From a virus: 22,721 bases of DNA. The stretch covers positions 1 to 22,721 of the IMG/VR virus record IMGVR_UViG_3300025101_000213; one strand, written 5' to 3'. Both the position numbers and the translations under genes were made by a program. Positions 1,449 through 19,985 of the stretch are shown piece by piece. Under the pieces are notes generated by a model. That model worked only from the letters and a program-made list of their open reading frames with translations, searched no databases and was not told the origin of the DNA. Numbering within the stretch: the first letter of the stretch is position 1; each line of letters begins with the position of its first letter.

Positions 1449-3863
1449 ATGGCATATTCTAGTAATAGTTATTTTCCAAGCCAAGTAGTAAGCGATATAG
1501 AAAAAGTTAGCTACGAATATGGTTTGAAAGTAGCAAAAGCTATAGAAAGCGAATGGTATGGTGATAACACTTCTCATAGAGGGTCTAGCTATAACATGCA
1601 CGGTCATAGTCAAAGAAACTTTCACAATTTAAGACTATACGCTAGAGGAGAACAGTCTATACAAAAGTACAAAGACGAACTTTCTATAAACGGTGATTTA
1701 AGCTACTTAAACTTAGATTGGAAGCCTGTGCCAATAATACCTAAGTTTGTAGATATTGTTGTTAACGGTATATCTGAAAGAACTTACGATATTAAAGCTT
1801 ACTCTCAAGATCCTTATGGAGTTACCTTAAGAACTGAATACATGGAGTCTGTACTTAAAGATATGAAGACTCAAGAGTTTAACGATTACGTAGGTAAAGC
1901 CTTTGGATTAAATATGTACGAAAATGATCCTTCTACTTTACCTAAAACTCAAGATGAACTTAAGCTACACATGCAGCTTTCTTATAAGCAAGCTATAGAG
2001 CTAGCTGAAGAACAAGCGTTGAGAGTATTGTTTGATGGCAATAAGTACGAGCTTACTAGAAAAAGGTTTTATTACGACTTAACAGTGCTAGGTATTGGTG
2101 CTGTAAAAACAAACTTTAACACTTCTGAAGGTATTACTATAGATTATGTTGACCCAGCTGACTTAGTTTACTCTTATACTGAGTCGCCTTATTTTGATGA
2201 CATATATTATGTTGGAGAAGTAAAGTCTATACCTGTTAACGAACTAGTTAAGCAGTTTCCACATTTAACACAGCAAGACTTAGAAGAAATACAAAAAGGC
2301 CCTAATAAAAAGCCTGACAACTACTCTAACGAAAAAGAAGACACAAACAAAATTAAAGTTCTTTACTTTAATTATAAGACATATATGAACCAAGTTTACA
2401 AGTTAAAAGAAACAGGTTCAGGCATGCAAAAAGCTATTGAAAAAGACGATACGTTTAATCCACCAGAAAATGCTGAAAACTTTTCTAAACTACAAAAAAA
2501 CGTAGAGTGTTTGTATGAAGGTGCTTTAATTTTAGGTACTGACAAGCTTTTAAAATGGGAGATGTCAAAAAACATGATGAGGCCAAAAAGCGACTATACT
2601 AAAGTTAAAATGAATTATAGTATTGTTGCTCCTCGTATGTACAAAGGCCGTATAGAGTCTTTAGTTAGTCGTATAACTGGTTTTGCAGACATGATACAGT
2701 TAACTCATTTAAAGCTGCAACAAGTAATGTCACGTATGGTGCCAGATGGTGTTTATCTAGACGCAGACGGTTTAGCTGAAGTAGATTTAGGTAATGGCAC
2801 TAATTATAATCCGCAAGAGGCTTTAAACATGTTCTTCCAAACAGGTTCTGTTATTGGTAGATCAATGACAGCTGATGGTGATATAAATCCTGGCAAAGTT
2901 CCTATACAAGAAATAAGAAGTAGTAGCGGCGGAGGCAAGATGCAAAGCTTAATAGCTAACTACAACTACTACTTGCAAATGATTAGAGACACTACCGGAT
3001 TAAACGAAGCTAGAGATGGTAGTACTCCAGATGCGAACGCTTTAGTTGGCATACAAAAATTAGCAGCAGCTAATTCAAATACAGCAACAAGACATATTCT
3101 TCAAGCTGGTTTATATTTGTCAAGTGACGTTGCTGAGTCTTTATGCCTTAGAATATCAGATGTCATAGAGTATTCTCCAACTAGAGATGCTTTTATAGAA
3201 GCTATAGGATCTCATAATGTAGGTACTTTAGAAGAGCTTAGTAATCTTCATCTTTATGATTTTGGAATATTCTTAGAGCTTGCTCCAGACGAAGAAGAAA
3301 AAGCGTTGCTTGAAAATAATATACAACAAGCGTTATCTCAAAAGAATATAAATTTAGAAGACGCTATAGATATTAGAGAAATAAGAAACGTTAGTCTTGC
3401 TAATCAGTTATTAAAAATAAGAAGAAAAGATAAGTTGAAGCAAGATCAACAAATGCAAGAAAGAAACATACAACTTCAAACACAATCTAACACTCAGGCA
3501 GCCCAAAACGCTGCTCAGCTTGAAGCGCAAAAAGAACAAGTTATGGCTCAAACAAAAGCTCAGCTTGCTCAACTACAAGGACAATTAGATGCTCAAAAAT
3601 TAAATCAAGAGGCTCAAGTTAAAAAAGAGCTTATGCAGTTAGAGTTTCAAATGAACATGCAGCTTAAGCAAGTGGAAGCTGAAACATTAAAGAGCAAAGA
3701 AAAACAAAAAGAAGATAGAAAAGACGAAAGAACTAAAATACAAGCGTCGCAACAGAGCGAGCTTATTGATCAAAGAAAAACAGGTGGTGCACCTAAAAAC
3801 TTTGAGTCAGCAGGTAATGATACACTTGGTGGATTTGACTTAGGTGGATTTGATCCTAGATAA
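1449..3863 (+). CDS. Portal protein, crAss-like type
   Basis: Portal proteins form the dodecameric ring at one capsid vertex through which DNA enters and leaves. The call rests on position (directly after the terminase), size (804 residues, within the range of large podovirus portals) and sequence style. The middle has the pattern common in this family, DYVDPADLVYSYTES followed by FDDIYYVGEV around residues 234-258, then a long helical part. Residues of about 660-775 are rich in Gln, Ala, Lys and Glu and should form an extended coiled coil or helical barrel. The tail end, near 790-804, is Gly/Asp-rich with a GGFDLGGFDPR ending. The start ATG lies two bases after the terminase stop behind AATAAAT, with no Shine-Dalgarno sequence. 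Function is well supported by context; I cannot verify the fold. Confidence 0.85.
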   Translation: MAYSSNSYFPSQVVSDIEKVSYEYGLKVAKAIESEWYGDNTSHRGSSYNMHGHSQRNFHNLRLYARGEQSIQKYKDELSINGDLSYLNLDWKPVPIIPKFVDIVVNGISERTYDIKAYSQDPYGVTLRTEYMESVLKDMKTQEFNDYVGKAFGLNMYENDPSTLPKTQDELKLHMQLSYKQAIELAEEQALRVLFDGNKYELTRKRFYYDLTVLGIGAVKTNFNTSEGITIDYVDPADLVYSYTESPYFDDIYYVGEVKSIPVNELVKQFPHLTQQDLEEIQKGPNKKPDNYSNEKEDTNKIKVLYFNYKTYMNQVYKLKETGSGMQKAIEKDDTFNPPENAENFSKLQKNVECLYEGALILGTDKLLKWEMSKNMMRPKSDYTKVKMNYSIVAPRMYKGRIESLVSRITGFADMIQLTHLKLQQVMSRMVPDGVYLDADGLAEVDLGNGTNYNPQEALNMFFQTGSVIGRSMTADGDINPGKVPIQEIRSSSGGGKMQSLIANYNYYLQMIRDTTGLNEARDGSTPDANALVGIQKLAAANSNTATRHILQAGLYLSSDVAESLCLRISDVIEYSPTRDAFIEAIGSHNVGTLEELSNLHLYDFGIFLELAPDEEEKALLENNIQQALSQKNINLEDAIDIREIRNVSLANQLLKIRRKDKLKQDQQMQERNIQLQTQSNTQAAQNAAQLEAQKEQVMAQTKAQLAQLQGQLDAQKLNQEAQVKKELMQLEFQMNMQLKQVEAETLKSKEKQKEDRKDERTKIQASQQSELIDQRKTGGAPKNFESAGNDTLGGFDLGGFDPR

Positions 3864-5119: not shown

Positions 5120-6625
5120 ATGGCTATTACTAATGGACCATTGTTAAACAGCATAGCTGCTCCACAGCAGCAAACGCTTGCTAGCAATTACATTGACTTT
5201 ACGGGCGCAGGAAATGACTGGGCTCAACAATACTTGCCAGAACTTATGGAAAAAGAAGCTGAGGTTTTTGGAAACAGAACTATCTCAGGATTTCTTTCTC
5301 AAGTAGGTGCTGAAGAGGCTATGACATCTGATCAAGTTGTCTGGTCTGAACAATCACGTTTACACTTATCTTATATCGGAACTATTGACGCTGATGGAGA
5401 TGTTAACGGTACTTTTACTGTAGTATCTGACATTGACGGAAATATTGCTGGTGATGGATTTGTTGTAGCTAATCACGGTATTAGAACTAACGACACTGTA
5501 TTAATCGCGCAAGCGGGTGTTGTTGTTAAAGCTCTTATCGTTGAAACTCCAGAATCTGCTGTTGTAAGCTTCGAGCCTTATTCAGAGGCTACAGGTGCTG
5601 CTGCAGGACTTTCTGATGGAACTGCTACTTTATTAGTTATCGGCTCTGAGTACGGTAAAGGTCAAGAGTACACTGATAATACTGGTACTTTTAGATCAAA
5701 CAAAAGAACAGCTCTTACTCCTACTTTCAAATCATTTACTAACAAGCCAATCATATTAAAAGATTACTATGAGATCTCTGGATCTGATGCTGCTCAAATT
5801 GGTTGGGTTGAAGTTTCTGGTGAAGAAGGACAAAGCGGTTACTTCTGGTACTTGAAAGCTGAAGGTGATACTAGAGCTCGTTTTACTGACTACTTAGAAA
5901 TGTCTATGTTAGAAGGTGAGTTAACAGTTGCTAACTCTATCATCGGCTTTGGTGACGATGGACAAATTAGAGGCGCTGCTGATTCTGGTGCTAGTGGTTC
6001 TGGTACTGAAGGCTTATTCGCTGCTATTGAATCAAGAGGTAATATTACTTCTGGTGTAACTGGTGTAAACCCTGCTACTGACTTAGCTGAGTTTGACGCT
6101 ATCTTAGCAGAGTTTGATAAGCAAGGTGCTATTGAAGAAAACATGTTATTCGTTAACCGTGCTACAAGCTTGGCTATGGACGATATGTTAGCTTCTATGA
6201 ACTCTTACGGAGCTGGCGGTACATCTTACGGTGTATTTGACAACTCTGAAGACATGGCGCTAAACTTAGGCTTTTCTGGTTTCCGTAGAGGATCTTACGA
6301 CTTTTACAAGTCTGACTTCCGTTACTTAAACGACAAAGCTACACGTGGTGGTATTAATGACAGAGCAGGTAGCGCAGCTATCCGTGGAGTTATTATCCCA
6401 GCTGGTGTATCTTCTGTTTACGATCAAGCTTTAGGAAAGAACCTTAAGCGTCCTTTCTTACACGTACGTTATAGAGCTTCTCAAACTGATGACCGAAGAA
6501 TGAAAACTTGGGTTACTGGTTCTGTTGGAGCTACTACATCTGCGCTTGATGCAATGCAAGTTCACTACTTATCTGAAAGATGTTTAGTGACACAAGCTGC
6601 TAACAACTTCATGTTGATGAAGTAA
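5120..6625 (+). CDS. Major capsid protein (HK97 fold expected), crAss-like
   Basis: This 501-residue protein should build the icosahedral shell. The strongest landmark is the central segment GYFWYLKAEGDTRARFTDYL followed by EMSMLEGE, at about residues 241-268, which I associate with crAss-like major capsid proteins. A preceding part, about residues 85-205, is rich in Gly, Asp and Val and looks like an inserted beta domain; GSEYGKGQEY closes it. The C-terminal part has GVIIPAGVSSVYDQ and HVRYRASQTDDRRMKTWV, again in family style. Codon use differs from its neighbours: 9 of 22 arginines use CGT, while the 290-residue neck gene has none among 12, as expected for a very highly expressed gene. A strong terminator follows the stop. 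The ATG sits behind AAATTAAAAAATT with no Shine-Dalgarno sequence. Confidence 0.9.
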   Translation: MAITNGPLLNSIAAPQQQTLASNYIDFTGAGNDWAQQYLPELMEKEAEVFGNRTISGFLSQVGAEEAMTSDQVVWSEQSRLHLSYIGTIDADGDVNGTFTVVSDIDGNIAGDGFVVANHGIRTNDTVLIAQAGVVVKALIVETPESAVVSFEPYSEATGAAAGLSDGTATLLVIGSEYGKGQEYTDNTGTFRSNKRTALTPTFKSFTNKPIILKDYYEISGSDAAQIGWVEVSGEEGQSGYFWYLKAEGDTRARFTDYLEMSMLEGELTVANSIIGFGDDGQIRGAADSGASGSGTEGLFAAIESRGNITSGVTGVNPATDLAEFDAILAEFDKQGAIEENMLFVNRATSLAMDDMLASMNSYGAGGTSYGVFDNSEDMALNLGFSGFRRGSYDFYKSDFRYLNDKATRGGINDRAGSAAIRGVIIPAGVSSVYDQALGKNLKRPFLHVRYRASQTDDRRMKTWVTGSVGATTSALDAMQVHYLSERCLVTQAANNFMLMK

Positions 6626-7629: not shown

Positions 7630-8826
7630 ATGGCGATAAGCATAGACACGGTATATCAAAGAGTTTTGGCAATCGCCAACAAAGAGCAAAGAGGCTACAT
7701 TACACCTCAAGAATTTAACTTATTTGCTAATCAAGCTCAGCTAGAGATATTTGAACAATATTTTTATGACATAAATCAGTTTAGTAGAACTCACGGCAAT
7801 GACACTGAGTATTCTGATATGTTAGAAGGCCTTGATGAAAAAATATCTATATTTAAGCGTAATCAAACTACGCTTCTTTCTACTACGAACACACCTGGTT
7901 ATTTAGCTACTTTTGGAGCTAACTTAGTTACAAACGGAACTTTTGATGATGATATTGCTAGTTTTACTGCCGGAGTTTCTGCAGCAGAAAACGGAGGTAG
8001 TCAATCACATGATGCTGGAACTGGAAGTTTAAAACTAGAAAACGATGCAGCTAATAATGTGTTTAGATCAACTCAAGCTGTCGCTACTACCGCTGGTACT
8101 TTGTATAGAGCTAAAGCTAGCGTTAATACTGGTAGCTTAAATACTAGCGGAAATAATGCTACGGCAAATGCAGGTATTCTTTTTAACGGCGTTCCTTCCG
8201 CAACTCTTGGACCTGGATTTAATAGTACTTTAGAAGTTTATGCTAGTGCTGTTGGTAACTTTACTAACTTAAAACTGTTTATATCTGGTAACGGCAATAC
8301 TGGTGCTGCTGACTTTGCTTTATTTGACAATGTAGAAGTTGCCGAAGTAAGTAGTAGAAAACTTTCGCTTAACAGCGATATATATAGATTAGGCACGATA
8401 TTGTTTACAAACTCTTCAGGAGAATTTGTTGAAGTCGATAAAGTATTACCAAACGAATTAGTTTATGTAAACTCTTCTCCCTTAACTAAGCCTTCAACTT
8501 CAAACCCAGTTTATGTTTTAGAAAAAAATAGTACTGGTTCAATAGGAAGTTTTTCGGTTTCGCTTTACCCTTCTAGCGTAGGTGTTAGTAGCGTTTCTTA
8601 TAATTATATAGCTAAACCTACTCAATGTAATTGGGGTTATACTGTTGTTAACGAACAGGCAATGTATGATGCCGCTAGCTCTACTAACTTTGAATTACAC
8701 GAATCTGAAGTAGTTACTATTGTAAATAAAATACTAGAACTAGCTGGTGTTGCAATGCAAAAACAAGATATACAAGGATTTGCTACAGGCAAAGATAACA
8801 AAGAAGTTCAACAAGAAAAATCATAA
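7630..8826 (+). CDS. Neck/head-tail connector protein with inserted carbohydrate-binding-like domain
   Basis: The protein has 398 residues. Residues 1-85 (start MAISIDTVYQRVLAIANKEQ, then GYITPQEFNLFANQAQLEIF) match, from memory, a helical family found beside neck proteins in many marine phages. The C-terminal part (from about 241: RKLSLNSDIYRLGTILF, NELVYVNSSPLTKPS, NYIAKPTQCNWGY) belongs to the same family. Between them, residues 98-240 form what looks like a separate beta-sandwich module: it opens with NLVTNGTFDDD and closes with FALFDNVEVAEV, the bounds typical of galactose-binding-like or CBM4/CBM9/CBM22-like folds. The likely role of the core is to seal the portal or join head to tail; the insert could point outward and bind glycans. 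Neighbour order supports the neck assignment. The insertion is an inference from remembered relatives. Confidence 0.62.
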   Translation: MAISIDTVYQRVLAIANKEQRGYITPQEFNLFANQAQLEIFEQYFYDINQFSRTHGNDTEYSDMLEGLDEKISIFKRNQTTLLSTTNTPGYLATFGANLVTNGTFDDDIASFTAGVSAAENGGSQSHDAGTGSLKLENDAANNVFRSTQAVATTAGTLYRAKASVNTGSLNTSGNNATANAGILFNGVPSATLGPGFNSTLEVYASAVGNFTNLKLFISGNGNTGAADFALFDNVEVAEVSSRKLSLNSDIYRLGTILFTNSSGEFVEVDKVLPNELVYVNSSPLTKPSTSNPVYVLEKNSTGSIGSFSVSLYPSSVGVSSVSYNYIAKPTQCNWGYTVVNEQAMYDAASSTNFELHESEVVTIVNKILELAGVAMQKQDIQGFATGKDNKEVQQEKS

Positions 8827-8829
8827 TAT

Positions 8830-9702
8830 ATGCCTTTAATTAACGAAACAGGTAGCGCGTATTACGGAGGTAGCAACTTAGGTGGTTATCAATTTACTTC
8901 ATTAAAAAATGTTATTGATCAATTTATAATAGCATACGTTGGAGAAGATAAAATAATAAGTAAGATAAAAAAAACTGATGTTGTTTTTCACGCTAAAAGA
9001 GGTTTACAAGAATTAAGCTTTGATACTTTTAAGTCAACAAAAGCTTTTGAAATATCTGTACCAACAACATTACAAATGACTTTGCCTCAAGATTATGTTA
9101 ACTACGTTAAATTAACTTGGTCAGATAAGGCAGGCATAGAGCACGTTATACATCCAGCTAGAGTTAGTAGTAATCCAGAAAAAATAACTCAAAACGCAGA
9201 TGGCACTTACGCTTTTTCAAGTAATGAAATAGAAACATCCGACTCAGATACTTGGGCTAATTACCAGGCAAGCTCTCCTTCAGAACAAAACATGGACGAC
9301 TTTGATTATGACGACGATATAGTAGATTACAACTTGGGTCAAAGATATGGTTTAGATCCTCAGTTTGCACAAACGAACGGATCTTTTTACATAGACGAAT
9401 TAAGAGGTAAAATACACTTTAGCTCTAACCTTTCAGGTGTAACTATAATACTTAAATACATAAGCGATAGTTTAGGCACAGAAGCTGAAACGCAGGTTCA
9501 TAAATTTGCAGAAGAAGCTTTATATAAATATATAGCTTATGCCATTGTTTCTACCAGAGCTAATATGCCTAATAGGCTAATAGAAAGATTAAAGAAAGAA
9601 GCTAGAGCTTCAAAACGACAAGCTAAGCTTAGACTTTCAAACATAAAAATAGAAGAAATAACTCAAGTACTAAGAGGTAGATCTAAACAAATTAAACACT
9701 AG
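8830..9702 (+). CDS. Neck/tail adaptor-like protein
   Basis: This 290-residue protein starts three bases after the previous stop and lies between a neck protein and the giant tail proteins. That is where podoviruses encode the tail adaptor (P22 gp4-like or T7 gp11-like role). Residues of about 49-67 (DVVFHAKRGLQELSFDTFK) form an amphipathic helix, followed by a beta part with VPTTLQMTLPQDYVNYVKL, an arrangement I know from phage neck proteins. A very acidic stretch (MDDFDYDDDIVDY) lies at about 155-168. The C-terminal 70 residues are helical and basic (RLKKEARASKRQAKLRL), which could contact DNA or the portal. The stop TAG is followed at once by TAA, a tandem stop, just before the next ATG. 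The adaptor role is inferred from context and helix pattern, not from a decisive motif. Confidence 0.6.
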   Translation: MPLINETGSAYYGGSNLGGYQFTSLKNVIDQFIIAYVGEDKIISKIKKTDVVFHAKRGLQELSFDTFKSTKAFEISVPTTLQMTLPQDYVNYVKLTWSDKAGIEHVIHPARVSSNPEKITQNADGTYAFSSNEIETSDSDTWANYQASSPSEQNMDDFDYDDDIVDYNLGQRYGLDPQFAQTNGSFYIDELRGKIHFSSNLSGVTIILKYISDSLGTEAETQVHKFAEEALYKYIAYAIVSTRANMPNRLIERLKKEARASKRQAKLRLSNIKIEEITQVLRGRSKQIKH

Positions 9703-9705
9703 TAA

Positions 9706-12700
9706 ATGGCTGAATTAAAAAGAACTTTTTTAAAAGCCAGAATGAATAAAGACTTAGATGAAAGGCTTGTTCCAAGTGGCGAATACAGAGATGCTTTAAA
9801 TATTGAAATATCAAGCTCTGAAGGTCCAGATGTTGGAACAGCTCAAACATTAAAAGGTAATACTAAGTGGGCAACAGATGCTGATGCAAACTCATACTCA
9901 AAGCATCCCTCTGCTCAAACTGTTGGTGTTTTTAACGACGCAGAAAACAACCATATATATAACTTTGTTTGCGATAGCTCTAACTTTACTGAAACTGAAG
10001 TTAATACTGACTTTGGTCTTAGAACTATGTTTCTTGGCAAAAGATCTGATTTAATAGAGCAAATAACCCCACATAAAACTAATAGCTCTTTAACTACATC
10101 TAAAGTACTTTTTCACGATGTTTATCAAGTTAATAACAGGCCTCAGCAAACTGACGAGCTTGCTAATGATACTATAACTATCAACTACCAAGGCAACAGC
10201 TACACTTTGCCTAATACAGATTATCCAGCTGACACTTTTACAAACGCTGGAGATATAAGAGTAGGTATGAGAGTTCAAGCTATAGATGTTAATGGCAACG
10301 ATGTTTACGGCGCTGAAAATGTAATAATAGTAAAAAGCATTAGACAAGTAGGGCCTCCAGGTAGTTTTCAAATAAAAACTAATAGAATTTATAGCGTAGA
10401 AGGTGTTTTGTGGAACGCTAACATGAGAAACCAAGGTGTTTATTTAAAGTTTACAGCTCAAAGAGTTTTAAAGTTTAATAAAGGTAATTCTAAAGAGCAA
10501 GAAACTAACGTTGATGGCACACCAACAAGTTTTACTCCTAGCAACTCGTACATAAGCGCTATAAACGTAATAGACGACTATTTATTTTGGTCTGACGGTA
10601 GAAATGAACCTAAAAAACTCAGTATACAAAGATCAATAGCTGGCAATCCAGCTACCTCATCTTTTGCGAATATTTACAGATGCCCGCATACAATACTTGT
10701 TTCTAAGAAAAATAAAAAATTATTTCCAGTAGATTATATAAAAGAATCTCACATAACGGTGTTGAAGCCTAATCCTGAAACAGCTATGAAAGCTACAGAG
10801 ATTATTTCTAGCGTTAACAATGTGAGTGATATTCCTGTTTACAGTAAAATAGGAGGTAGTGATGATCCTTGGGCGCCTTGGTCTTTTGTTAATGCTTCAG
10901 GTAATCTTTACAACTTAAACTCTAATATATATATACAGCCTCAAACTACACTAGAAGATGCTTGGCCTGTAGGCACAATACTAAAGCTTGATGGTAGTAG
11001 CAGTGCTTCTTCAATTACAATTCAAGTTACAGAAGTTTACGGAAGCAATCCTAGCGCAACAAACGGCGGTTATTACGTTGTTAAAAGAACAAGTGAATAT
11101 CCTAGTGGTTATGATGCTGGAGCTAATCCTGAAGTATGGCTTGCTAACTCAGTTACTAAAGAAGAGTTATATAGTAACGACTTTATTAGTTTTTCTTATA
11201 GATATATATATGCTGACAACGAAACATCTTGTTTAGCCCCTTTTACAACAGCAATGTTTTTGCCTGACAACTATTCTTATTCGCCAAAAGACGGGTTTAA
11301 TCTTGGCATGCAAAATGTTTTAGAAGAGATTAGTTTAACTGATTTTATTCACGATCACACTCCAAAAGACGTTGTTGCTATTGAGTTAGCTTTTAAAAGC
11401 TCAAAATCAGATAATGTTTTTGTTTTTAGAACTATAGATAAAAATGCTACACCTTTATCATCTTTAGTGTTACAAGGCTTGCTAAAATACAGAATGACAA
11501 GTTCTTACGAAACTTCTTCTGTAATTGTAAAAGAAAGATTGTTTGGATATACAATTCCATCAGATCAACTGCTAAGAACTTTTGATGCTGTTCCAAAAAA
11601 AGCTATAGCTCAAGAAATTCAAGCAAATAGATTAATGTATGCTAACTACACGCAAGACTATAATTTGTTTGATATTTACAACAATGCAATAACACCTAAT
11701 ATTGTTAGTTATATCCAAAGCGACTCAAGAGGATTTCTCGGCTCTTTCAGCTCTGCAAATATATTTAGAGCTAGTCAAGGAACGCATAATAGTCTTGTAG
11801 AGAATAACGATGGGTTTGATATATTTGTAAACAATCCAACAAATTATTTATTAAACGGAAGTATGGGTAGCTTTGGTGGAGTGATGACTAGCATGCCTAT
11901 TAAAATGGGTGTTGAAGTTGATCCAGGAAATAACTTTGAGGCAGGAAATACTTTTAGCGTTTATACAGCTCCTGAAGAAGGTTTTTATAGAATAAAAGCT
12001 TCAGCTAGAGTTAGAGCTGATTATTCTGAGTTTAGCAATGGAAACTCTCCTAGGCCAAGAAGAGTTAGGCTTGCAATTCTGCCAGCAGCAGCTACAAACA
12101 GTGCCATATGGGCTGCTGTTCAAGACGTTAATGTTGGTTTATCATCACCTGATATTGATGTTAACGGACCAGTAAACCAAACAATCACTACTACAGTAGG
12201 CGCACAAAGTTTTGACGGAGACACTGGCGTTTGGACTGGCTTTAATAGTTCTCCTTGGACTTACTATAATAATTTTGCTATAAGTAATCAACACTCGCCT
12301 GTAGTTAGCCCTTGGAACGACGAAAATCAAATGATAGTTAATGGATTTGAAGCTAACTCTTTAGGAAACTATCCAAACGCTGCTTACGACATTGAAATAG
12401 CTGAAGTAGAAGTTTATTTAACTGAAGGTCAAAATTTATCTTTGCATGTTCAGTCTGATGAAGATCCGGTCACTAACTTTTTAGACGTTATGACTGTTAC
12501 TAATTCTACTTTTGAAATTACCTCAGCTCCTTCAACAACGTTTGAATTACCAACTTTAAAAGGTCAAAAGTCTATAAAATCAGAAAGAAATTATAATCTA
12601 GGCATTGTATATAGAGACGACTTAGGAAGAGAGTCCTCTGTTTTAATTGGTGAAGATGAGGACTTTACTTGTTCAAAAGATAAAGCGCCTAATAAAAATA

Positions 12701-15009
12701 GTTTGATAGTATCTCCTAGAAACAACGCACCGTCTTGGGCTAAAACATATAAATACTTTATAAAAGAAAACACTTCTAAATATGAAAATTTAGTTTTAGA
12801 AGCGGCGTTTGCTTCAGATGAAGGAGACTATGTATACTTAGTGTTTAACTCTGTAGACAAAGATAAAGTAAAAACTGGAGATTACTTAATATCTAAAAAA
12901 CAGCACAATTCAAACAACCCTATAATAGACACAGGCGCTAGACATAGAGTTGTGTCAATAATAGGTGAAGTTACCGGTCAAGATGAAGACGGAAATCCAG
13001 CTTTGCAAGGAACTACTGTGCCAGATAGTTTACAGCTAGACTCAAGTGAGGGCGATGGTAAGTTTTTTGTTAAAGTAGCTAGAGTTAATATTGACGGAAC
13101 AGCAGACTCTACTCTTGGAATTTTTGTTGAGGGCGTTATAGCTTCAGTAGGTAGCAATAACGGCGCTGTGTTTGAAGTTGAGCCTGACAACAAGCTAGAC
13201 TTAGATCTTTATTATGAAATAGGTGATGCTTATCCTATTAGACTTGAGAAAGGGCAAGCAACTAAATATATTAAAAAAGGAGCTAAAATAACGATACATG
13301 AAGATGTTTCTATAATAAGTGGTATATTTAACGAAGATCACTATTCAAACCCTTTTGTAATGGGCGTTGATGGCGCTACAACTGTCGGCGCAGCTCAAAG
13401 CGCAAGTAATGATGTAGACTACTATTGTAAAGTAAGATTAAGCGTGCCTTCAGATCTCAACTATTTTGTAGCTATGGGCAATTATAAAGTTAGATTTACA
13501 AATAGTGATGGATCTTATGTAGAGGCGTTTTTAGGTAAAGACTTATTCACTGGAGATAATTTTATATATTTAAACCCTATAGTTCACTATGACACAGCTT
13601 ATGATAACGGTGTTAGCTATTTATACAATAGTCTTCCTTGGTACAATTGCATTGCGTTTGGTAACGGTGTAGAATCTGATACTATTAGAGATGACTTTAA
13701 CGGTACAGAGCTTTTTAAATACATAACTAGCGGAAAACAAAGTGGCGTAAAAGCTAGCATGCCTATTGTAAACTACTCAGAGTATACTAAGCCAAATGAT
13801 ATAATATTTTCTGAAATATATAATGAAAATAGAGGGTTAAATAGATTTAACGAGTTTATAATGTCTAAAAACATTATAAAACAAATAAATCCTGATTACG
13901 GTAGTATACAAAAATTGTTTTCAAGAAATAATGATCTTTTAACAATATGTGAAAAAAAGTGTTTAAAGGTGTTATCTCAAAAAGATGCTTTATTTAACGC
14001 TGATGGAAAACAACAACTATTAGCTACAGACAAAGTTTTAGGGCAAGCCGTACCTTTTAAAGGCGATTACGGTATATCTAAAAACCCTGAAAGCTTTGCA
14101 GCAGACGAATATAGATGTTATTTTACAGATGTTCAAAGAAACGCTGTAATAAGACTTTCTGGAGACGGAATAACACCTATATCAAAAGTAGGTATGAACG
14201 ATTGGTTTAAAGATCATTTAACTAATGCCAACGCAATTGTAGGATCTTTTGATAGTGACAAAGAAGATTATAATATAAGTATTCATGAAATTATACAATT
14301 AAACGCTACAAAGCTAGTAAACACTTTATCTTATAACGAAACTGTAGATGGCTGGACTAGTTTTAAGTCTTTTATAAAAGAAGCTGGCTTAACTTTAAAT
14401 AATAAGTACTACACCTTTAAAAACGGTGAAATATATAGACATCATAACGATAAAGAGGGTTACAATATTTTTTACGGCACAGAATATAGCTCTTCAATAA
14501 CATGTATATTTAACGATAATCCTAGCATAGTAAAAGCTTTTAGATATTTTGATTATGAAGGCACTCAAGCTAGAGTTGTTATAAACGAAGAAGATAACGA
14601 TTATTATAACTTATTTGAAAAAGCAGGTTGGTATGGCGAGTACTTAAATACTAATTTGCAAGAATCAATACCTACATACTTTTTAGATAAAGAAGGCAAA
14701 TGGTTTTCTTATGTAAAAGGCGTAACAACTAAACACACTAACGTTGCAGATGGCGGAACTATAGATGATACTAATATAGATACTAAAGAATTTTCAGTTC
14801 AAGGTTTAGGTAATCTAACATCAAATGTAACTCTTATAAGCGGAACACTTCCAGCCGCAGGCTTTGATGTAGACATAACGCCTGTCTTTAATTTTGAGTC
14901 AGGGTTTGATGGCTTTGTTAACGCTGAAGGTTTTAGTAGTAGCTCTAGCGCTAGCAGTAGTAGCTACAGTAGTAGCAGTAGCAGTAGCAGTAGTAGTAGC
15001 TCATATTAA
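9706..15009 (+). CDS. Giant tail/stabilisation protein, beta-propeller-like, with polyserine C-terminus
   Basis: At 1767 residues this is the largest protein in the window. Its start, MNKDLDERLVPSGEYRDALN at residues 13-32, is a signature I know from marine phage structural proteins; P22 gp10-like stabilisation and crAss-like tail-hub proteins occupy the same place. DYLFWSDGRNEPKKL (about 291-305) resembles YWTD/NHL-type propeller repeats. A fibronectin-like segment with NYNLGIVYRDDLGRESSV falls near 963-980, and a second propeller-like part runs from about 1375 to 1530 (NPDYGSIQKLFSRNNDLLTI, DEYRCYFTDVQRNAVIRLS, GMNDWF). DKEGKWFSYVKG lies near 1661-1672. The chain ends in an extreme serine tract, listed separately. 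It probably forms the tail tube, hub or knob. The start is three bases after the tandem stop of the preceding gene, with no Shine-Dalgarno sequence. Confidence 0.7.
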   Translation: MAELKRTFLKARMNKDLDERLVPSGEYRDALNIEISSSEGPDVGTAQTLKGNTKWATDADANSYSKHPSAQTVGVFNDAENNHIYNFVCDSSNFTETEVNTDFGLRTMFLGKRSDLIEQITPHKTNSSLTTSKVLFHDVYQVNNRPQQTDELANDTITINYQGNSYTLPNTDYPADTFTNAGDIRVGMRVQAIDVNGNDVYGAENVIIVKSIRQVGPPGSFQIKTNRIYSVEGVLWNANMRNQGVYLKFTAQRVLKFNKGNSKEQETNVDGTPTSFTPSNSYISAINVIDDYLFWSDGRNEPKKLSIQRSIAGNPATSSFANIYRCPHTILVSKKNKKLFPVDYIKESHITVLKPNPETAMKATEIISSVNNVSDIPVYSKIGGSDDPWAPWSFVNASGNLYNLNSNIYIQPQTTLEDAWPVGTILKLDGSSSASSITIQVTEVYGSNPSATNGGYYVVKRTSEYPSGYDAGANPEVWLANSVTKEELYSNDFISFSYRYIYADNETSCLAPFTTAMFLPDNYSYSPKDGFNLGMQNVLEEISLTDFIHDHTPKDVVAIELAFKSSKSDNVFVFRTIDKNATPLSSLVLQGLLKYRMTSSYETSSVIVKERLFGYTIPSDQLLRTFDAVPKKAIAQEIQANRLMYANYTQDYNLFDIYNNAITPNIVSYIQSDSRGFLGSFSSANIFRASQGTHNSLVENNDGFDIFVNNPTNYLLNGSMGSFGGVMTSMPIKMGVEVDPGNNFEAGNTFSVYTAPEEGFYRIKASARVRADYSEFSNGNSPRPRRVRLAILPAAATNSAIWAAVQDVNVGLSSPDIDVNGPVNQTITTTVGAQSFDGDTGVWTGFNSSPWTYYNNFAISNQHSPVVSPWNDENQMIVNGFEANSLGNYPNAAYDIEIAEVEVYLTEGQNLSLHVQSDEDPVTNFLDVMTVTNSTFEITSAPSTTFELPTLKGQKSIKSERNYNLGIVYRDDLGRESSVLIGEDEDFTCSKDKAPNKNSLIVSPRNNAPSWAKTYKYFIKENTSKYENLVLEAAFASDEGDYVYLVFNSVDKDKVKTGDYLISKKQHNSNNPIIDTGARHRVVSIIGEVTGQDEDGNPALQGTTVPDSLQLDSSEGDGKFFVKVARVNIDGTADSTLGIFVEGVIASVGSNNGAVFEVEPDNKLDLDLYYEIGDAYPIRLEKGQATKYIKKGAKITIHEDVSIISGIFNEDHYSNPFVMGVDGATTVGAAQSASNDVDYYCKVRLSVPSDLNYFVAMGNYKVRFTNSDGSYVEAFLGKDLFTGDNFIYLNPIVHYDTAYDNGVSYLYNSLPWYNCIAFGNGVESDTIRDDFNGTELFKYITSGKQSGVKASMPIVNYSEYTKPNDIIFSEIYNENRGLNRFNEFIMSKNIIKQINPDYGSIQKLFSRNNDLLTICEKKCLKVLSQKDALFNADGKQQLLATDKVLGQAVPFKGDYGISKNPESFAADEYRCYFTDVQRNAVIRLSGDGITPISKVGMNDWFKDHLTNANAIVGSFDSDKEDYNISIHEIIQLNATKLVNTLSYNETVDGWTSFKSFIKEAGLTLNNKYYTFKNGEIYRHHNDKEGYNIFYGTEYSSSITCIFNDNPSIVKAFRYFDYEGTQARVVINEEDNDYYNLFEKAGWYGEYLNTNLQESIPTYFLDKEGKWFSYVKGVTTKHTNVADGGTIDDTNIDTKEFSVQGLGNLTSNVTLISGTLPAAGFDVDITPVFNFESGFDGFVNAEGFSSSSSASSSSYSSSSSSSSSSSSY
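14935..15003 (+). repeat. Polyserine-coding tract (AGY repeats) at the end of the giant tail gene
   Basis: The 23 codons before the final Tyr encode 21 serines, broken only by one Ala and one Tyr: runs of 5, 4 and 12 serines. Nineteen of the 21 serine codons are AGT or AGC, so the DNA is a near-perfect AGY trinucleotide repeat. It could change length by slippage without shifting frame, and would give a flexible, hydrophilic tail at the protein C-terminus. Confidence 0.9.
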
Positions 15010-15023
15010 TAAATTAAATTATG
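15008..15023 (+). promoter_or_regulatory. A/T-only translation leader, copy 1 of a 16-base repeat
   Basis: The bases AATAAATTAAATT directly before the start ATG, together with that ATG, recur exactly at 20406-20421. No Shine-Dalgarno sequence is present. A/T-rich, unstructured leaders are the usual start signal in Bacteroidota, so this is probably a strong host-adapted initiation region. A chance match is possible because all gaps are A/T-rich. Confidence 0.45.
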
Positions 15024-18000
15024 CCAAATATATTATCATCGCAAGGATTAGACATAAACAACGTAACTCAAGTGGGTGTTGGCGGCTTGTTGCAGTCTAA
15101 TTTTTTAATATCTCCAGCTGAAGGTTATTTTATAGCAGAATCTCAATTTAGTATAGACGAAGAGTATCTTGCAGAAATACTAGAAAATAATGTTGAAATA
15201 ACTAATATTACTTTTTCAAACACTACATTAGGATTTGCGCCAGATAATAAAGTTAATGTAAATATTACCTGGGCTGCAAACACTACGTTGACAAATGATA
15301 TAGACTTTAATTTAGCTATAAACTTCAACGATATTAACCAAGTATATGATGTAAATGCAACTTTAGTTACTATTCCTTTTGTTAGAGGAAGCGGCTATGA
15401 GAATAGTGATAACATATGGAATAATGTTACTGTAGAAATTTTACCTAACCCAGAAAATATTGTAGGTGTTTCTCAGGTTTCAAACTTTAACATAGTAAAC
15501 GATAACACCTATGCTAATCAAGCGCAAGGTCTTATTACTTTCGCCGCTACAGAAGACGGCCCTATGGTAGTGTGTGATGTGCAATTTAAAGCTAGCAGTG
15601 TTGAAGGTATGAGAGCTTTTATACAATCTGATGCTAATGAAATGTTTTCGTGGACAGTTAGCCCTGACGGTCAAAACGGTGAGTTTACTTGGCTGCCTAT
15701 TCAAACTATCAATGATCAATTTGGCAACCCATACTCTTATATATATAGATTACAATACACAAGAGATAATGAAGGGCCTAGTGAAGTAGAGTTTAATAGC
15801 TTTACATATTATTGCCTTGAAAACTCTAATCCGTACTCTATCACTAACGTTGGATCTAATCAATTAGTGATTGACGCTGTTGGCGCTGGAGATGCTTTAG
15901 ACGGAGCTGGAACATTAACAAGTGAAGCTTCAAAATCTTTTGCAATAAATAATATACCTTCTGGCGACGTTACTTTTACCTTTAGTTCAGTTTGGGCGCA
16001 GGCTGGTGACCAAGTTCCGTTTTACTTAGGTGAAAATCAGTACACATATCATTTTGATGTAAACGCTATAGACGTTGGTTTAGCCAATAGAACTTTAACT
16101 GTTGAAGTAAGAGATAATAAATACCCGTTAATACTAAGATCAACATTTACTATATATCAACAAACAGATCCTTATATACTATTAAAAATAGCTACAGACA
16201 ATGTAGACTCTATAGAGATGTTTTACGACGAATATATAGACTCAGGTTATGACGGCAGCTTTTCTAGTAACGAGGCTATTTTCACTTCTACTGGAAAAGT
16301 AATAAGTCATGTTAGCCCTGCTGCTACAGAGTGGCAATACATACCTAGCGATGACGGGCCTCAATCTTTGCTTACGTATGGTGGAGATGAAACTCTTTTA
16401 GGTGAGTCGCAAGGTATAACGCACTATGTATATGCTTTTACTAATACAAGCGTTACTCTAGCTCAAATGCAAGAGATACCTTTAAGTATTGTTCAAGATC
16501 AATATCCTGTAGGATCACCTACTCCTAAAGACTGGGTTATACCTCAGTCTACTGGATGGGATCAAGTAGGTGGTAATAATAGTGGGATATTTAAATATCC
16601 TATTGCTATAAGAAATCAAGACGAGCGTAATAATTTTGGCGCGTTAATAAATACAAATACAGATAGAACAGCAAATTTATCAATAGTACACCCACAAGAT
16701 GCTACTATATCTAGCACAGCAACGATAGAGCAAGACAATACTTGGAGAGCTGCTGATAAATCAATTTTAAAAATAGGTAGTATTAGCACTGCATTTTCTG
16801 CTGTACCGTCTGGTAATTATACTGAAGATCCTTCTTCTATTCCTTCAGATATTGGTAGCACTTCTACGTATAGGCTTTATGTTACTGTTGAAGATCCATC
16901 TTCACTTACTGAGTTTAACATGCGAACTTTAATATCTAACGATAAACAATATCCACCTCCGTATGTGACAGTTATAAATAGCGGCACATATACTACGTCT
17001 GAAAACGTAGAGGTATTTCAAAGTTCTAATGGAACACCTGATAGTTGGGTAAATCAAGCTGTTGAAGTAGATAATCTTACTTTAAACCCTAACTACGATC
17101 CTACAGACGCTGATAATAATTATCAATACTTTTTTGACTATACTGTTACGGCAAACACTAGCTTTGGAGAAAGATATATTCAGTTTATGGTTTTTCACCC
17201 ACAAAGAAGACTTTTTACGCCTGCTGATTGGAACGCTTATAGCTTTAGTACTGATATTATAAAGCACACTCAACAAGAGCCTGCTGTAGCTGAGTTAATG
17301 CCTGAAGTTGGTGGTGATGCTAATGAAATGTATTTTAACTGGGGCGAAGGTGTACAACTTAGAAATGTTATAGCTCAATGGACAGGTGGTGCGCCTACTA
17401 TTGGAATTTGGGACGAACTTACTGAATCATATTTTGCGTTTCCAGCTGGCACTACAGCTTTAACAGGATTTTCTTACCAGCAAGTTAGCCTTTCTGACAC
17501 GTCTTATCTTTTAGCGTGTTCTTTTCCAGAAAACACGCCAGACAACGAAAGAAGCAATACTTTAGGCATTTGGCACTCGTCATCATCTACAGCTGATTTT
17601 CCTAACGACACAATCACTTTAACACAGTATGCTCAGCCTTTTGATGAAGCTAATTTTTGGGTTTTAAGTCAAACGCTTGCTGGATTTGATGAACAAACAT
17701 CTGCTGCTGGAAGCGTAACTGTTTACTTTCAAGTAAGTAATTATAGCGCAGATGATTTTGCAAATGGCACTAATAATCCTACCGTTCAAGTTAAAAGATG
17801 GAATGGACCTAGTGTAGAGATAGGAGAATATGCTGACGACAATGGAGATTATGACGATTTAGGCATTTTACCATCTTATGCAAGTATTATTGCAAGCTTA
17901 ACCCCTAACCCTAGCTGGAACATGGCTGATCCTGTCTTAGGTATTCAATATACACATAGTCTTGTTGTAAACTATTCAGAATATACAGCAGGTGAACCTT

Positions 18001-19985
18001 ATTATTTTGCAATAAAAGCTAAACATCAATATGAAGATGATTATGCTATTGAAAATCATTCTTTTGTTACAATACTACCTGGTCAAACGCTTTCTTTAAA
18101 CCCATCAGTGTTTATTGATACTGGAGATGGTAATTTTGTACCTAATAGTACTTTCTTGCCTTCTAATACTCAAAGAATAAAACTACGCTTAACATACTCT
18201 AGTTTTTCTGATAGTACCTTATATCCTTCAAATCTTTTAATACCCGCTACAGATACTACAAACTATACTTACGCTAGGTTTTTAAACGCTACAACATCTG
18301 CAAGTGTTTTTGCAGAAGATAGTGGCAGCGAATTTAATAATATAGATCAAGAAAACATCCCATTAATGTTTGCTACTGGACCTGACGGAGAAAATACTAC
18401 ACATGTAATTGATAAACCTTTTCAACAAGGATTTGAAGGTTTCACAGATAATAATAATGCAAACAACAATAAGAATAATGCAACTCCTGTAGTAGCTGCT
18501 TTTCCATTGGCTAAGTTAGACGTGGTTCTTAATGTACGACAAAACGATACTGGAAGTGCTATAAATTCAAGGATAGGTTTTTGGAAAGGAGATAACGTTC
18601 CTAAAACAAATTTAATAAACACAAGCTACGCTTTTAATTCTGGTGGAGCTTTTGGTCCTTATCAAAATGCTAATTGTATTTGTAATTTTATTGATCCTAC
18701 CGCTCAAGGGCAATTTACAAACCTTTTTAACACTTACTCTATGCATCATCTTTACGATGAAGCTGACACAACTGGATATGCGTACACTATTGATGCTAAC
18801 AGTACTTCTGCAGTAATAGGTGATTTAAGAACAAAAGATGTTTATAAACCAATACAATCATCAGAGTATTCTGGCACTGATATTCACGATGGTTTTACTT
18901 GGAACATCGATAGCTTAAGTCCATATCCAACATTTAGTGATAGCTCTGGTGAAGTTGCTCTTAGGTTTTTAATATTTAACCCTAGTGTAGCTAGTGGTGG
19001 TGGTCAATACGAAGATGCTAATTTTCAATATAACGCTGTAAACTCTGTAGGAACTCCTCATAAATTTGGAAGAAATAAATTACTAGGTGTTAGCTTTGAA
19101 GTAGAAGACTTTGAAAAGTTTGATCCTGCTATGACTGACGAAGAAGTGCAGTGTGGATTTTTGTATAAAGCTAATCAAAACCACGCTTATGAACTTAACA
19201 ATGTTAGTAACGGCCAAGTTAATCAAAATAACTATACTACTGGTATAGGCGACACTTGGGAAGTGCCTAACAACATTTTAAATATAGACGGTGTTACTGA
19301 TGATTATTTAAGCACTTTTAGAAATGCTTTAACGTTTTCTGGTAATGGAAAATATCAAGGAGTAATAAAGCAAGGAGGTATGAACAATTCTTCGTGTATA
19401 AACTTTTTTGCTAAAGCAAAAGCAAAGTTTAGAATTAAAAATCTTAAAGTTTGGCAAATTAGAAACGATATACGCATTAGACCTAACGGGTCTGCAATAG
19501 AATTTGGCACGGCTCCAGACGCTCAGGTACTTCTTACTTTAGCTTCTATTATACAGCTAATTAAGTTTGATACAACTGGTTATCTTGGCTCTCCAATTGA
19601 TGGAAATCCAAACAACAATAATGCAATGCCAGAAGACGGCGCAAACTGGGTTATTGAAGCAAACTCTGATGCAGCTACTTTTAATGGACAAGCAAACTCT
19701 TATATATTTGAGATTGAAAACGTTAATAACTACGCAACTGCTAATATTTTAGTTTGGGACGGCACTAATAGTAGTAATTTAAGTACTATAGACTGGATAA
19801 CTGGTTTTGAGGATTTTCAGCAAGGTGGAATTTATGCTGCTTTTGAATTAGGATTTGCTAATAACTTTACAGGTGCATCAAGATCTGTAACTTTAGGCAT
19901 TTGGGCTGGTAATCCTGCAGATAATACTATTGCGCCTGAAGACACGTTTACAATAACACAAAACTTTACAGAAAGTCAATATTAG
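15021..19985 (+). CDS. Giant tail protein with BACON/Ig-like repeats, likely receptor or glycan binding
   Basis: The protein has 1654 residues. The N-terminal LISPAEGYFIAESQFSID (about residues 30-47) is a segment I recall from many marine phage tail proteins and may be the anchor. After it come divergent beta-sandwich modules. Several end in the BACON-like pattern of an Arg/Asn-Thr strand, about 20 residues, then a T/S-I-x-Q strand: RTLTV to TIYQQ (357-379), RTANLSI to TIEQ (549-571), GERYIQ to KHTQQ (716-750), RSNTLGIW to TLTQ (844-868) and RSVTLGIW to TITQ (1621-1647). Module starts also recur: DANEMF at 204, DSIEMF at 396 and DANEMY at 766. An Asn-rich linker lies at 1144-1154. The C-terminal part includes KAKFRIKNLKVWQI, jelly-roll-like. 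No lyase or hydrolase motif is visible. BACON-bearing tail proteins are known from crAss-like phages; host-surface binding is an inference. Confidence 0.68.
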   Translation: MPNILSSQGLDINNVTQVGVGGLLQSNFLISPAEGYFIAESQFSIDEEYLAEILENNVEITNITFSNTTLGFAPDNKVNVNITWAANTTLTNDIDFNLAINFNDINQVYDVNATLVTIPFVRGSGYENSDNIWNNVTVEILPNPENIVGVSQVSNFNIVNDNTYANQAQGLITFAATEDGPMVVCDVQFKASSVEGMRAFIQSDANEMFSWTVSPDGQNGEFTWLPIQTINDQFGNPYSYIYRLQYTRDNEGPSEVEFNSFTYYCLENSNPYSITNVGSNQLVIDAVGAGDALDGAGTLTSEASKSFAINNIPSGDVTFTFSSVWAQAGDQVPFYLGENQYTYHFDVNAIDVGLANRTLTVEVRDNKYPLILRSTFTIYQQTDPYILLKIATDNVDSIEMFYDEYIDSGYDGSFSSNEAIFTSTGKVISHVSPAATEWQYIPSDDGPQSLLTYGGDETLLGESQGITHYVYAFTNTSVTLAQMQEIPLSIVQDQYPVGSPTPKDWVIPQSTGWDQVGGNNSGIFKYPIAIRNQDERNNFGALINTNTDRTANLSIVHPQDATISSTATIEQDNTWRAADKSILKIGSISTAFSAVPSGNYTEDPSSIPSDIGSTSTYRLYVTVEDPSSLTEFNMRTLISNDKQYPPPYVTVINSGTYTTSENVEVFQSSNGTPDSWVNQAVEVDNLTLNPNYDPTDADNNYQYFFDYTVTANTSFGERYIQFMVFHPQRRLFTPADWNAYSFSTDIIKHTQQEPAVAELMPEVGGDANEMYFNWGEGVQLRNVIAQWTGGAPTIGIWDELTESYFAFPAGTTALTGFSYQQVSLSDTSYLLACSFPENTPDNERSNTLGIWHSSSSTADFPNDTITLTQYAQPFDEANFWVLSQTLAGFDEQTSAAGSVTVYFQVSNYSADDFANGTNNPTVQVKRWNGPSVEIGEYADDNGDYDDLGILPSYASIIASLTPNPSWNMADPVLGIQYTHSLVVNYSEYTAGEPYYFAIKAKHQYEDDYAIENHSFVTILPGQTLSLNPSVFIDTGDGNFVPNSTFLPSNTQRIKLRLTYSSFSDSTLYPSNLLIPATDTTNYTYARFLNATTSASVFAEDSGSEFNNIDQENIPLMFATGPDGENTTHVIDKPFQQGFEGFTDNNNANNNKNNATPVVAAFPLAKLDVVLNVRQNDTGSAINSRIGFWKGDNVPKTNLINTSYAFNSGGAFGPYQNANCICNFIDPTAQGQFTNLFNTYSMHHLYDEADTTGYAYTIDANSTSAVIGDLRTKDVYKPIQSSEYSGTDIHDGFTWNIDSLSPYPTFSDSSGEVALRFLIFNPSVASGGGQYEDANFQYNAVNSVGTPHKFGRNKLLGVSFEVEDFEKFDPAMTDEEVQCGFLYKANQNHAYELNNVSNGQVNQNNYTTGIGDTWEVPNNILNIDGVTDDYLSTFRNALTFSGNGKYQGVIKQGGMNNSSCINFFAKAKAKFRIKNLKVWQIRNDIRIRPNGSAIEFGTAPDAQVLLTLASIIQLIKFDTTGYLGSPIDGNPNNNNAMPEDGANWVIEANSDAATFNGQANSYIFEIENVNNYATANILVWDGTNSSNLSTIDWITGFEDFQQGGIYAAFELGFANNFTGASRSVTLGIWAGNPADNTIAPEDTFTITQNFTESQY

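Follow-up and report, generated by a model that had tools for sequence, protein, structure and literature searches.

A predicted CBM-like domain inserted into a tail-barrel ring (neck) protein of a marine phage

In short-tailed phages, the search for receptor binding has mostly been directed at the tail fibres and the tip. The locus described here lies in the record IMGVR_UViG_3300025101_000213 of a marine virus of bacteria (positions 1 to 22,721; this whole stretch of 22,721 nucleotides is referred to as the window), and it raises the question of what a carbohydrate-binding-like domain might be doing within a protein of the phage neck.

The carrier protein and its genomic context

The protein in question is encoded by an open reading frame of 398 codons at positions 7630-8826 on the plus strand and is filed by PHROGs under phrog_14543, virion structural protein. 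On the same strand lie a portal protein gene at 1449-3863 (phrog_6547, E = 1.9e-155), a probable major capsid protein gene at 5120-6625 (phrog_13704, virion structural protein, placed by a gene order as in phicrAss001) and a muzzle protein gene at 9706-15009 (phrog_14478), the product of which carries crAss_MUZ_C at residues 1586-1671 (Pfam PF25729; score 29.3 bits, cut-off 27). This gene order is like that of Maribacter phage Panino, the Flavobacterium elemo phages and phicrAss001, and the location of the 398-codon frame between the probable capsid gene and the muzzle gene is that of a gp34-type ring gene.

The AlphaFold2 model of the entire protein (pLDDT 83.7) has the three-helix plus beta-sandwich fold of such rings and, outside a central insert, aligns with ring protein 3 of phicrAss001 (7qoj_D, gp35; Z 12.2 over 205 residues, model residues 3-379). 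In a profile comparison by hhalign the insert-less members of the family matched the homologues of gp34, i.e., ring 4/5, with a probability of 95.7 (E = 9.9e-9, 198 columns), while the same profile gave no clear match to single gp35 or gp40 sequences nor to the gp43 family, and sequence searches of the PDB with either the full 398-residue protein or its profile returned no matches. The model of one relative, L076, additionally matched tail proteins of the podoviruses Pa223, GP4, SU10 and VP1 at modest Z. Because gene order, fold match, gp34 profile match and these podovirus tail matches all point the same way, sequence and model together identify the protein as a ring (neck) protein of the tail barrel and as a homologue of phicrAss001 ring protein 4/5 (gp34). 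The original prediction of a neck protein is thus borne out by fold and profile homology, but its further assignment to the head-tail joint may be imprecise, since rings 4 and 5 of the phicrAss001 tail barrel are located towards the muzzle, and it is rings 1 and 2 that are bound by the fibre hubs (PMC10172136).

The core of the ring protein consists of a helical N-terminal part (residues 1-84, 7630-7881), which is kept in all relatives, and of a conserved C-terminal part comprising the beta-sandwich and the C-terminal helices (residues 243-398, 8356-8826), both parts being covered by the fold match to ring protein 3 and the profile match to the gp34 family. In the alignment of the relatives F75 is invariant, and Y252 and G255 are conserved in more than 90% of sequences, i.e., on either side of the insert.

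Some further observations concern the surrounding genes. The muzzle protein is closed by a long serine-rich run, SSSSSASSSSYSSSSSSSSSSSSY (window positions ~14930-15009), and is followed by an open reading frame of 1654 codons (15021-19985) which has no Pfam match and the sequence of which looks, by eye, like repeated BACON-type beta domains, the respective stretches ending in FTIYQQ, FTITQN and ITLTQY. In homologues of phicrAss001 gp34 found in L259, L260, L269 and L271 near base 2611, the reading frame is interrupted behind codon 37 and continues some 300 bases downstream, perhaps owing to an intron; no Rfam match was found in L259 or L269.

A domain predicted to fold separately at a hairpin of the ring core

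A scan of the sequence collection yielded 518 relatives, 80 of which were kept, and further scans brought the sample to 175 non-identical proteins with all core parts. These comprise 25 proteins with the domain at the site seen in the window (site 1), 141 without an insert and nine with other inserts at a second site, numbers which reflect how the relatives were fetched and not natural frequency. With respect to length the relatives of the first scan fall into two classes: long proteins (~380-413 residues) align with the window protein from end to end, and short ones (~226-256 residues) match residues 1 to ~80 and ~240-398 and skip the block in between. Among the 175 proteins, the stretch from the N-terminal core to the YRLG strand measures 10-39 residues in 150 proteins and 160-186 residues in the other 25, with no intermediate lengths.

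The motifs taken as the edges of the domain were found where they had been placed, NLVTNGTFDDD starting at residue 98 and FDNVEVAEV ending at residue 240. A discrete block was rightly recognised, but alignment with insert-less relatives such as L241 (EKIAAFKVNDSTLSDQTTLPSDLYR) sets its borders slightly wider, giving an extra domain of ~158 residues (about 85-242; 7882-8355) at a beta-hairpin of the ring core. Its absence from 150 of the 175 relatives argues against a segment common to the entire family. An intron, an intein or an assembly artefact is unlikely at this place, because the frame is open and the domain occurs at the same site in many independent contigs.

According to AlphaFold2, the insert forms a beta jelly-roll of its own (pLDDT mostly 82-96), separate from the core that aligns with the crassvirus ring protein; it would thus not be part of the core fold. 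Its first and last long strands (residues 95-102 and 229-240) run back to the core hairpin, which fits an insertion into a loop. The best matches of the insert model among solved structures are an arabinanase domain (Z 14.2), a CBM16 (Z 13.7), a hyaluronan-binding module (Z 13.6) and a porphyran-binding CBM (Z 13.4), all of them glycan-binding or glycosidase accessory domains, and the model has the jelly-roll fold of the CBM_4_9 or galactose-binding-like family.

By sequence, the link to this family came from the inserts of relatives alone: Pfam CBM_4_9 is matched by 13 of 24 homologous inserts (best E = 5.5e-8), e.g., by those of L017 (31.0 bits) and L012 (29.4 bits), which exceed the cut-off of 25.9 bits, whereas the insert of the window itself scores 13.6 bits, and a Pfam scan of the whole 398-residue protein returned no CBM. 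A profile of the inserts found related structures in the PDB weakly (porphyran-binding CBM 8xmz, E = 0.058; laminarinase module 1gui, E = 0.42). Taken together, the predicted fold and the family matches of homologous inserts support an inserted, separately folded CBM-like domain, as the original prediction had proposed from the letters of the window.

Divergence of the insert and further insertion sites

In a tree based on the core only, all carriers of the site-1 insert are united in a supported clade (97/88), which also includes the insert-less L241; a topology that groups the carriers by themselves was not rejected (p = 0.215). One gain followed by one loss is the simplest history on the core tree, and to judge from these sequences the site-1 insert probably arose once. 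The insert diverges much faster than the core: identity is 46% in the insert against 68% in the core within the group of the window, and 18% against 53% between groups. A scan with the insert of the window alone retrieved two close relatives, and searches of the cultured phages in the collection with the insert gave no match. In eight larger phage contigs the insert is present once per record.

Such rapid divergence bears on the possibility that the insert acts as a structural brace, packing between the ring and the capsid, the collar or the next ring and stabilising the joint without binding any sugar. The Ig-like domain of the roseophage R4C adaptor, which touches the capsid and has been proposed to be structural (PMC10276861), would be a precedent for this. 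However, many close relatives assemble without the insert, and divergence well ahead of the core is unusual for an interface; we therefore consider a brace rather unlikely. Optional presence among relatives with the same gene order speaks also against a docking module by which another virion protein, for instance a fibre or a hub, would be anchored on the ring. Although tail hubs do dock on ring proteins in phicrAss001, they do so on rings 1 and 2 and not on the gp34 type (PMC10172136), and this explanation appears improbable.

The cultured relatives, Maribacter phage Panino and the Flavobacterium elemo phages, lack the insert. In a scan of bacterial genomes the only finds were three phage-like contigs within MAGs, and insert-less relatives of the ring gene are seen in the MAG contigs L245 and L247 (labelled Maricaulis) and L246 (labelled Sphingobacteriales). 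The contigs labelled Maricaulis may be binning errors, since the named hosts of the cultured relatives are Bacteroidota.

Site 1 is not the only place at which this family has taken up additional sequence. Different inserts are found in L041, L052, L076, L091-L093, L095, L098 and L102 at a second site, which precedes the YIxKP strand, and to account for them the core tree needs no fewer than three changes along supported branches; L076 and L087, for instance, are sisters (100/98), and only L076 carries such an insert. AlphaFold2 predicted this insert with a pLDDT below 50 over most of its length.

The adjacent gene (8830-9702, plus strand), coding for a virion structural protein of 290 residues (phrog_13977), is present in the window in its short form, whereas relatives have large inserts at about residue 125-135; among 157 relatives its central gap measures 43-73 residues in 118 and 175-339 residues in 39. 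These inserts, found in homologues from, e.g., L041, L076, L112 and L237, are varied and in part CBM-like: that of L237 scores 24.2 bits against CBM_4_9, just below the cut-off of 25.9, and several more look alike by eye, with NGNF...W starts. Another module type is common to the neighbouring gene and the second site of the ring protein (28 bits, E = 7e-9 within the compared set of inserts), and the second-site insert of L076 scores 19.9 bits against a profile of the CBM-like inserts of the neighbour. By sequence comparison, the gene next to the ring gene is thus an insertion platform as well; that its product is itself a ring protein was looked for and could not be shown.

No phage in the sample combines a site-1 insert with an insert in the neighbouring gene. 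The resulting apparent mutual exclusion (24 to 0 versus 94 to 39; Fisher p = 0.0007) fails on the tree as independent evidence because it follows clades.

The occurrence of several unrelated module types at several sites, together with the apparent loss in L241 and the difference between the sisters L076 and L087, one of which has gained or the other lost a second-site insert, might be taken to mean that the insert is a promiscuous phage module tolerated in a permissive loop with little effect. Yet the site-1 insert keeps an open frame and the signature of its fold in 25 proteins, down to ~18% identity between groups, which implies selection for the fold and makes a mere passenger very unlikely.

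Possible function and comparison with known systems

An exposed accessory module would be in keeping with the fold of the insert, its place at a hairpin, its optional presence and its fast divergence, and the many relatives that lack the domain or have other inserts nearby suggest that the virion carries an exchangeable grip. A domain with a CBM-like fold does not necessarily bind sugar, and we put glycan binding by the insert, as judged from model and family matches, at about an even chance. An adhesive role may nevertheless be fairly inferred. The optional CBM_4_9-type jelly-roll at the ring hairpin, present in up to twelve copies per dodecamer, would then most likely provide weak, multivalent attachment to polysaccharides that aids adsorption, a reading in which our confidence is evenly balanced.

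If the ring is dodecameric, up to twelve inserted domains could be displayed round the barrel. They would probably face outward, since the DNA channel would be too narrow for the bulk of twelve copies, and might bind, weakly and multivalently, polysaccharides of the host surface or of the surrounding algal or bacterial slime. Adsorption would thereby be helped by the ring domains, with specific recognition being left to the tail fibres and the muzzle. More tentatively, and with less confidence than in attachment by the ring domain itself, the two adjacent neck proteins of this group of crass-like phages might constitute a platform on which beta-modules, CBM-like and others, are displayed at three or more insertion sites; the modules would come from a pool that is shared in part, be swapped between phages and tune polysaccharide binding as a second adsorption system apart from the tail fibres.

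Should ring or neck proteins prove to be carriers of exchangeable glycan-binding modules, predictions of host range for phages of marine Bacteroidota ought to include them. The idea can be tested, since some close relatives have inserts and others lack them, and the insert-less Panino and elemo phages are in culture. No description of a CBM-like insert in a ring protein of the crassvirus type, or of a two-gene insertion platform, was found in the literature searched.

That an accessory beta-sandwich resides on a phage virion protein is, by contrast, already known. Ig-like domains (Fraser 2006, in the account given of it in PMC10276861) are optional and promiscuous beta-sandwich modules on phage virion proteins, albeit of another fold family. 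The adaptor of roseophage R4C, a dodecameric neck protein, likewise bears an accessory beta-sandwich, but this peripheral attachment domain is Ig-like, N-terminal and proposed to be structural (PMC10276861), whereas the present insert is CBM-like and internal. In Anabaena phage A-1(L), too, a CBM is present at the neck, although on a separate long fibre (gp80), and binding of this CBM to the host was not detected (PMC10966104); both precedents therefore advise caution as to an adhesive role. CBM_4_9 and CBM16 modules (PDB 2zew, 2zey; porphyran-binding 8xmz) share the jelly-roll, and several of the homologous inserts exceed the CBM_4_9 cut-off, but those modules are attached to enzymes, whereas the domain described here, known from its predicted fold, lies inside a virion ring protein. 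The closest counterparts of the carrier, gp34 and gp35 of phicrAss001 (R3-R5, PDB 7qoj), have the same core fold, family and gene position ahead of the muzzle, yet they have 238 and 230 residues, respectively, and no inserted domain.
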